Shown here: positions 40,652 to 41,752 of the stretch, in pieces
Layout of the letters: every line of letters begins with the position of its first letter
How positions within the stretch are numbered: the stretch's first letter is position 1
NCBI GenBank assembly: GCA_023150875.1
Contig: JAKLKC010000018.1
Location: 1-64,000 of the forward strand
DNA: 64,000 bases
Origin: Myxococcota bacterium
GTDB lineage: Bacteria; Myxococcota_A; UBA796; UBA9615; JAKLKC01
Reading direction: 5' to 3'
Made by a program: the position numbers and the translations under genes
Notes under the pieces: generated by a model
What the model saw: only the letters and a program-made list of their open reading frames with translations
Told to the model about the DNA's origin: nothing
Database searches by the model: none

Positions 40652-41752
40652 ATGCGCGTCCCCCGTCCCCTCGCCGCCGCCCTCGCCGTCCTCTTCGCCG
40701 TCGCCTGGGCCACCCCCGCCGCGGCGTCCTGAGGGCTCTGAGGCTCGGCCTCCCTCCCGGTCGGGAGGGTCCCCACCGACGACCCCCTGGGGGCGGGCCA
40801 GGTCCGCCTCGGGGCGGGGGTGCAGCTCATCCCCCAGGTGCTCCCGTGGGACCGCTGGTCCCCCGCCGACACCCCGGACGGCGAGGTCGCCTCCGCCGCC
40901 GTCCTGCTCCGCCTGCCCCTGCGGGCCTCCTTCGGGCTCGCCCCCAGGGCGTCCATCGAGGTGGAGTTCCCCCTGGAGGCCCAGTGGGTCCGCGCCCCCA
41001 CCGGCGAGGACGGGAGCCGCTTCGTCCCCGGCGACCTGAACGTCGGGGTCCAGCTCTGGCCCGTGCTGCCCCGGGGATCCGGCGTGGTGCGGGCGGGCGC
41101 CTTCCTGGGCGCCAGCCTGCCCACCGGCGCGTCGGGGGGGGCCCTGCTGGCCTACGAGCAGGGGGGCGTGTCCCTCCGCACCGGATCGGGCACGGTGGAC
41201 CCGGTGCTGGGGGGCGACGTCCTGGTGTTCACCCCCACCGTCGCCTTCGTGTCCTCCTGGGCCCGGGCCCGCCTGCCCGTCTACGCCAACGGCGAGGGGT
41301 ACCGGCGGGGGATCTCCCTCTCGGAGGGGGTGGAGCTGGGGCTCCGGGAGCCCCGGGGCCGGCTGGTGGTGCAGGTCGGGGTGGAGGGCTTCCACGCCGC
41401 TTCGGACCACGTGTCATCGGAGGGGGACGGAGCGGGGGGGATCGCCACCGCCGCGGGGGTGCCCACCGCCCTGCCGATGCACGCCGCCGGCGAGGTCCAC
41501 GACGGCCGCCGCCACGAGGTGGCGTTCACGGCGGCGGTCTCCCTGCTCCCGAGCCGCACCTGGGCCTTCGCCGCCCGGGTGCGGGCGCCCTTCCTCCGCT
41601 TCGCCGGCGAGCCCCAGGTGATGAGCCCCGTGGACGTGTCGCTGTCGGTCTCCGCCGTCCTGGGGCCCCCCTCCCGCAGGGGAGGGGCGGGAGGGGGCCA
41701 CGCGCACCCCGGGGAGGCCGTACCCCCTCCGGAGCCCGCCCCGCCTCAGTAG
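40652..41752 (+). CDS. Candidate selenoprotein: secreted barrel-like protein with in-frame UGA-Gly-Leu-UGA
   Basis: Read from ATG 40652 through two in-frame TGA codons (40,730-40,732 and 40,739-40,741), 366 residues. Residues 1-26 are a clear Sec signal peptide (RPLAAALAVLFAVAWATPAAAS). Right after the cleavage site comes U27-G-L-U30-G, then a beta-rich body in the same frame: GSASLPVGRVPTDD, VRLGAGVQLIPQVLPWDRW, LNVGVQLWPVLP, RAGAFLGASLPTG, ending VDVSLSVSAVLGPPS. Secreted proteins with CxxC at exactly this place are common, so Sec-x-x-Sec would replace Cys. A hairpin with a GGUC loop lies 17 nt after the second UGA. Alternatives: start at GTG 40820, which loses the signal peptide and has no ribosome site, or a doubly nonsense pseudogene. 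Divergent from the phosphodiesterase gene. Confidence 0.6.
40752..40769 (+). promoter_or_regulatory. SECIS-like hairpin after tandem UGA codons
   Basis: CCCTCCC (40,752-40,758), loop GGTC (40,759-40,762), GGGAGGG (40,763-40,769): a perfect 7-bp stem. The first loop G is separated from the second UGA by 17 nt and from the first by 26 nt. In bacteria the SECIS element sits directly after UGA with a G in the small apical loop about 16-37 nt downstream; E. coli fdhF has a loop containing GGUC with nearly the same spacing. No bulged U is obvious in this stem. In a region this GC-rich a chance hairpin cannot be excluded. Confidence 0.5.

Follow-up and report, generated by a model that had tools for sequence, protein, structure and literature searches.

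A candidate family of outer-membrane beta-barrel proteins with a Sec-x-x-Sec pair in Myxococcota and Neomarinimicrobiota

Selenoproteins with two selenocysteines (Sec, U) arranged as UxxU are known, and SelL is one of them. Others are a Prx-like thiol:disulfide oxidoreductase, Prx-like 2, the FmdB family, and the NF041115 metal-binding protein (PMC13188914, PMC2398784). A May 2026 inventory of 119 selenoprotein families, in its accessible part, gives UxxU only for Prx-like, FmdB, and metal-binding families, and gives as outer-membrane Sec proteins only single-Sec TonB-dependent receptors (the FCYXU type, NF049945) and MtrB-like barrels (the MtrB/PioB-like GSU2204 family, NF041027) (PMC13188914). 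The same paper describes the bacterial SECIS (bSECIS) as a stem of 4-16 bp with a loop of 3-9 nt that has a G in its first two positions, placed 16-37 nt from the UGA, and with a dG of at most -7.5 (PMC13188914). For the fold, the COG4313 structure is relevant here; in it, the periplasmic side of the lumen is filled by the residues preceding strand 1 (PMC4493636).

Here we describe a gene at 40652..41752 (+) of the window (the whole 64,000-nt stretch of Myxococcota DNA that was analyzed), which translates into a 366-residue protein if both of its in-frame UGAs are read as Sec. Its features are collected in Table 1. The codons GGG CTC (Gly-Leu) separate the TGA at 40730-40732 from the TGA at 40739-40741, the frame stays open for 336 codons beyond the second UGA until the TAG at 41750, and 26/26 codons of 40742-40819 have G or C in third position. 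A preliminary description of this DNA had reported a signal peptide at residues 1-26, TGAs at 40,730 and 40,739 followed by the same frame, and codons that all end in G or C up to 40,819. The translation confirms the frame, the count from 40742 confirms the codon bias, and the signal peptide is backed by the translation, by reading it by eye, and by the relatives. When the DNA is read with table 11, the sole open piece of the frame is an N-truncated 310-aa ORF starting at GTG 40820, so a standard annotation would drop the signal peptide and both UGAs. It is a solitary gene, flanked by a sulfatase-like gene that diverges from it and a LexA-like gene that converges on it, both named from reading their ORFs.

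Table 1. Features of the double-UGA gene, in window coordinates.
Feature	Position	Strand	Remarks
Whole gene	40652..41752	+	TAG stop 41750-41752; supported by translation and by homologues over the entire length
Signal peptide, residues 1-26, MRVPRPLAAALAVLFAVAWATPAAAS	40652..40729	+	ATG at 40652; judged by eye; relatives have one at the same place
First UGA, putative Sec27	40730..40732	+	Cys in C-x-x-C and C-x-x-U relatives
Second UGA, putative Sec30	40739..40741	+	Cys in C-x-x-C relatives
Candidate bSECIS hairpin, CCCUCCC-GGUC-GGGAGGG	40752..40769	+	7 bp; loop 40759-40762; -13.6 kcal/mol
LPVGR motif, residues 35-39	40754..40768	+	Invariant alignment columns; LPVG also invariant in a second alignment; overlaps the hairpin
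Predicted outer-membrane beta-barrel, residues 51-337	40802..41662	+	COG4313/FapF-like; same top matches for another family member
C-terminal tail with GGHAHPGE	41675..41749	+	Short His-containing tails end many relatives

The window protein has no match to any Pfam, NCBIfam, or PHROGs model, and a search by sequence of a plasmid collection and of the PDB returned nothing meaningful for it. AlphaFold models it as an outer-membrane-type barrel (pLDDT 76, pTM 0.75), as it does an Archangium relative (pLDDT 79, pTM 0.79), in keeping with the beta-rich secreted protein proposed at the outset. Among PDB structures, both models match best to 4rl8, a COG4313 channel, and to the transporter FapF (5o65), with which they share the predicted barrel and the segment before strand 1. 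The TM score to 4rl8 is 0.54-0.55 by query and 0.70-0.72 by target, but in sequence the COG4313 channel is just 13-16% identical, below Pfam thresholds; one relative (L025) reaches 16.1 bits with PF13557 (Phenol_MetA_deg), for which the cut-off is 22, while the window protein has no match to it. On the strength of these models, we consider it likely that the product is an outer-membrane barrel. The UxxU would then lie in the segment equivalent to the COG4313 residues that precede strand 1, a placement made by analogy in a segment of low confidence (pLDDT below 50 in both models). Unlike the family described here, the COG4313 structure paper mentions no Cys, and a U/C-x-x-U/C motif is not reported there (PMC4493636).

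Relatives emerged as the search profile grew. A first search of 58 related genomes with the single protein gave one weak match, from a different family within the class, which likewise has two internal TGAs; a scan of genome contigs with the single window protein gave no match. A two-row profile matched in 21 of 71 class genomes, and a 19-row profile in 104 of the 379 genomes of the phylum (Myxococcota), one copy in genome G011 ending at a contig border. A DNA pattern (TGA-6nt-TGA plus LPVG) had 13 matches in 12 genomes; two of the 13 (L060 and L062), lacking a signal peptide or the conserved protein, are chance matches. All 36 genomes with strong matches in the class (36/36) have both in-frame UGAs at the same place, at an identity to the window protein of roughly 21-33% inside the class, and many further genomes of the phylum have the pair as well. 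What stands between the UGAs differs from gene to gene (GL, SL, TS, SG, PG, AG, AA, GA, and PL, among others), but the UGAs themselves are constant. One gene (L048:1507-2322 (+)) has an extra codon between them, U-T-G-C-U, encoded as TGA ACG GGT TGT TGA. Scanning genome contigs for UxxU together with the hairpin core found genes in Myxococcus, Archangium, Kofleriaceae, and Polyangia MAGs, as well as members in Candidatus Neomarinimicrobiota (UPLUSNPSLPVG), along with a few unrelated chance matches. The Neomarinimicrobiota members are of the UPLU/UPMU type (L163, L167, L168, L175, L178, L182, L199, L204, L206, L208, L210, L212, and L214), and some have His-rich C-termini (GEEHDHEH, EDGHDHAH).

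The positions of the UGAs are also occupied by Cys. A set chosen without hairpin selection contains 61 UxxU, 11 CxxU, and 7 CxxC genes. Outside the class we find C-x-x-C (CPGCQNPNLP, CAGCSNPNLP, CAACxNPxLP) or C-x-x-U at the UGA positions, and in L115 and L117 the first motif residue is absent and the second Cys is kept. Placed on a tree with 118 members, the U-x-x-U, C-x-x-U, and C-x-x-C states require five changes, and shuffled labels need far more. At the level of sequence, this U/C exchange matches the pattern by which selenoproteins are recognized. It had been suggested that the gene either founds a Sec-x-x-Sec family or has homologues with Cys; with 11 C-x-x-U and 7 C-x-x-C members alongside the U-x-x-U ones, both are true.

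Downstream of the two UGAs, where the preliminary description expected a SECIS, there is a single hairpin. Its loop starts 17 nt past the second UGA and 26 nt past the first, and it falls inside every bound of the bSECIS model for both UGAs (PMC13188914). Among genes found via protein search alone, a hairpin at -6.5 kcal/mol with its loop 16-18 nt after the second motif position is present in 55/61 UxxU, 7/11 CxxU, and 0/7 CxxC genes, against a background of 2.8% of the other positions in the same genes; at the published cut-off of -7.5 the counts are 35/61, 7/11, and 0/7. Where Leu and Gly codons pair in the stem, their wobble bases covary (C-G 13, G-C 11, U-A 2, G-U 1; permutation p 5e-5). 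The hairpin p-values are optimistic, as the sequences are related, yet the pattern recurs in distinct clades. The covarying codon pairs (CTC/GGG, CTG/GGC, CTT/GGA, CTG/GGT) are all synonymous, and the eight exceptions to the pairing are of the CxxU-LPVGD type, with the register shifted by one base. Against a synonymous-codon null, with motif-selected loci included, the mean z is -1.75 for UxxU and -0.14 for CxxC. A plain fold of 64-72 nt of the region is no better than shuffles; it is uninformative because the region is GC-rich, and thus the position-specific and synonymous-codon tests are needed. An Rfam scan of the window gave no match, and the window yielded no second UGA gene with this type of hairpin.

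The host genome has selA (contig C11, 451 bits), selB (contig C33, 333 bits), and selD (contig C116, 373 bits), the last with an in-frame UGA in its active site, QCAG-UGA-ASK. Judging by this sequence, the host SelD (G000:C116:11470-12399, L221) is probably itself a selenoprotein, and thus the genome's second UGA-Sec gene. In the host assembly (180 contigs, 98% estimated completeness), searches for selC with RF01852, with strict and loose patterns, and with a class tRNA-Sec model returned only other tRNAs or unrelated matches, and ARAGORN reports no tRNA-Sec in ~143 kb surrounding this gene and the sel loci; it does report a tRNA-SeC for three genomes from the host's order and for eight others from the class. 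The expectation that the genome would carry the sel genes thus held for selA, selB, and a Sec-type selD, while selC was not found in this 180-contig assembly. Across the phylum sample, counted by hand per genome, selA is present in 69 of 74 genomes with a U form (five have no selA match) vs. 1 of 7 with the CxxC form only (Fisher p 9e-6).

Two in-frame stops have the textbook look of a broken gene, and the TGAs could be two nonsense mutations, or sequencing errors, that replaced other codons. But the same two TGAs occur in independent assemblies from several families and two phyla, the protein downstream is conserved, and the hairpin covariation is synonymous. A sequencing artifact is excluded because the TGAs recur in other genomes, and this recurrence already refutes the broken-gene reading, to which we give next to no probability; the early argument that random mutation was an unlikely cause is strengthened by paired TGAs, spacing, and flanking residues that recur in dozens of independently assembled genomes. 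Alternatively, a code change or general readthrough could place some amino acid other than Sec at the UGAs, which would agree with the tRNA-Sec gene not being found in the host assembly. This is very improbable given that UGA serves as terminator in many of these genes, that homologues have Cys and not Trp or Arg at the UGA positions, that the host has selA, selB, and a UGA-containing selD, and that the hairpin sits at the expected bSECIS position. Finally, the UGAs might act in control and not in chemistry, as a selenium-sensing switch that at low selenium yields the signal peptide alone. They are found exactly where the signal peptide ends, such that termination would leave only a short peptide. 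However, one UGA would suffice for a switch, not two at x-x spacing, and the relatives without the hairpin have Cys in place of Sec, so the residue itself matters; we consider a switch improbable.

Since the UGAs are conserved or replaced by Cys, a covarying hairpin lies in range, and the host has selA, selB, and a Sec-type selD, Sec is very likely inserted at the UGAs. We assign a probability of about 0.87 to the gene encoding a double-Sec (Sec27-x-x-Sec30) protein of a new outer-membrane beta-barrel family, a figure that covers the identification as a selenoprotein barrel and not channel gating. As in the known UxxU selenoproteins, there would be two Sec at CxxC-like spacing, with UGA plus a downstream candidate SECIS, and there are Cys homologues; those proteins belong to other domain families, and the motif here would lie at the mature N-terminus of an exported barrel. 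The NCBIfam and Pfam models of the known UxxU families do not match this family. The NF049945 and NF041027 proteins also have Sec in an outer-membrane beta-barrel, but they are different barrels with a single Sec, and neither NCBIfam model matches here. The family is absent, by name and motif, from the accessible part of the 119-family inventory (PMC13188914). Among open-licence papers we found none on Sec in Myxococcota and, judged by title, none on Sec in Marinimicrobia that concerns this family. The double-Sec barrel family has apparently not been described before; it would join a known kind of protein, the selenoproteins, as a new family, and in an unusual setting.

Clues to function come from the neighbors of relatives. 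The UxxU genes of the class's subfamily II have directly upstream of them a gene with HMA-like and thioredoxin-like regions, such as L035:305-979 (+); in the single case tested, both regions are under the Pfam cut-offs. In other branches a thioredoxin-like protein is encoded upstream or fused C-terminally, several times with a Cupredoxin_1 domain after it. The upstream thioredoxin-like gene is retained even beside some CxxC homologues. The fusions in L197:1397-3430 (-), L164, L174, and L211 consist of signal peptide, U-x-x-U barrel, thioredoxin, and Cupredoxin_1; the one in L197 has a His-rich linker between barrel and thioredoxin. No thioredoxin partner is found near the window gene, nor beside its closest relatives as far as seen, so the idea of a redox partner is drawn from the other branches.

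Because of these thioredoxin, HMA, and cupredoxin neighbors and fusions in relatives, we favor a thioredoxin-linked redox or soft-metal site on a channel. A thioredoxin-coupled redox or metal role has about even odds, and copper specifically is unlikely. After export and removal of the signal peptide, the U-x-x-U would be within the first few mature residues; the analogy with COG4313 would place it in or at the mouth that a 12-stranded channel opens to the periplasm. In that position the pair may alternate between the diselenide and the diselenol state, or may hold a soft metal ion, copper for example. The electron donor would be the periplasmic thioredoxin-like protein that other branches fuse or encode next door, and the channel would be gated or loaded according to the redox or metal state of the pair. 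We tentatively propose, at less than even odds, a selenol-gated channel in which a Sec-x-x-Sec diselenide at the periplasmic mouth, reduced by a dedicated thioredoxin that some species have as a fusion along with a cupredoxin-like domain, controls the passage or loading of soft metals or redox-sensitive substrates. A different function, with both Sec accepted, would be a channel for the uptake of oxyanions or hydrophobic substrates, the UxxU being a stable diselenide crosslink of the plug and neither a catalytic nor a metal site. The fold does resemble the COG4313 uptake channels and FapF, one relative has the weak Phenol_MetA_deg match, and there is a precedent in the porin-like ExtI of Geobacter, linked to selenite handling (PMC5877670). 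But the recurrent thioredoxin, HMA, and cupredoxin neighbors or fusions and the His-rich tails speak for an active role in redox or metal chemistry, and we regard a plain uptake channel as somewhat unlikely.

The family adds a two-Sec family to Myxococcota and Neomarinimicrobiota, whose members current annotation truncates or misses because Sec codons look like stops. The Sec-x-x-Sec pair would sit on a channel of the outer membrane and not on a thioredoxin-fold enzyme, suggesting a use for selenium chemistry at the cell surface. One hairpin for two UGAs nine bases apart offers a clean system for the delivery of successive Sec by SelB; a selenol-gated channel with both Sec from one SECIS, if true, would be a natural test of processive double-Sec decoding. 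The natural U-x-x-U, C-x-x-U, and C-x-x-C versions allow testing why two Sec persist. Finally, some larger C-x-x-U proteins (CSAUGNPALPVGDTDMSR...) form a clade of their own, with L147, L149, L152-L155, and L157-L159; most have a thioredoxin-like C-terminal match, and their hairpin register is shifted by one base.
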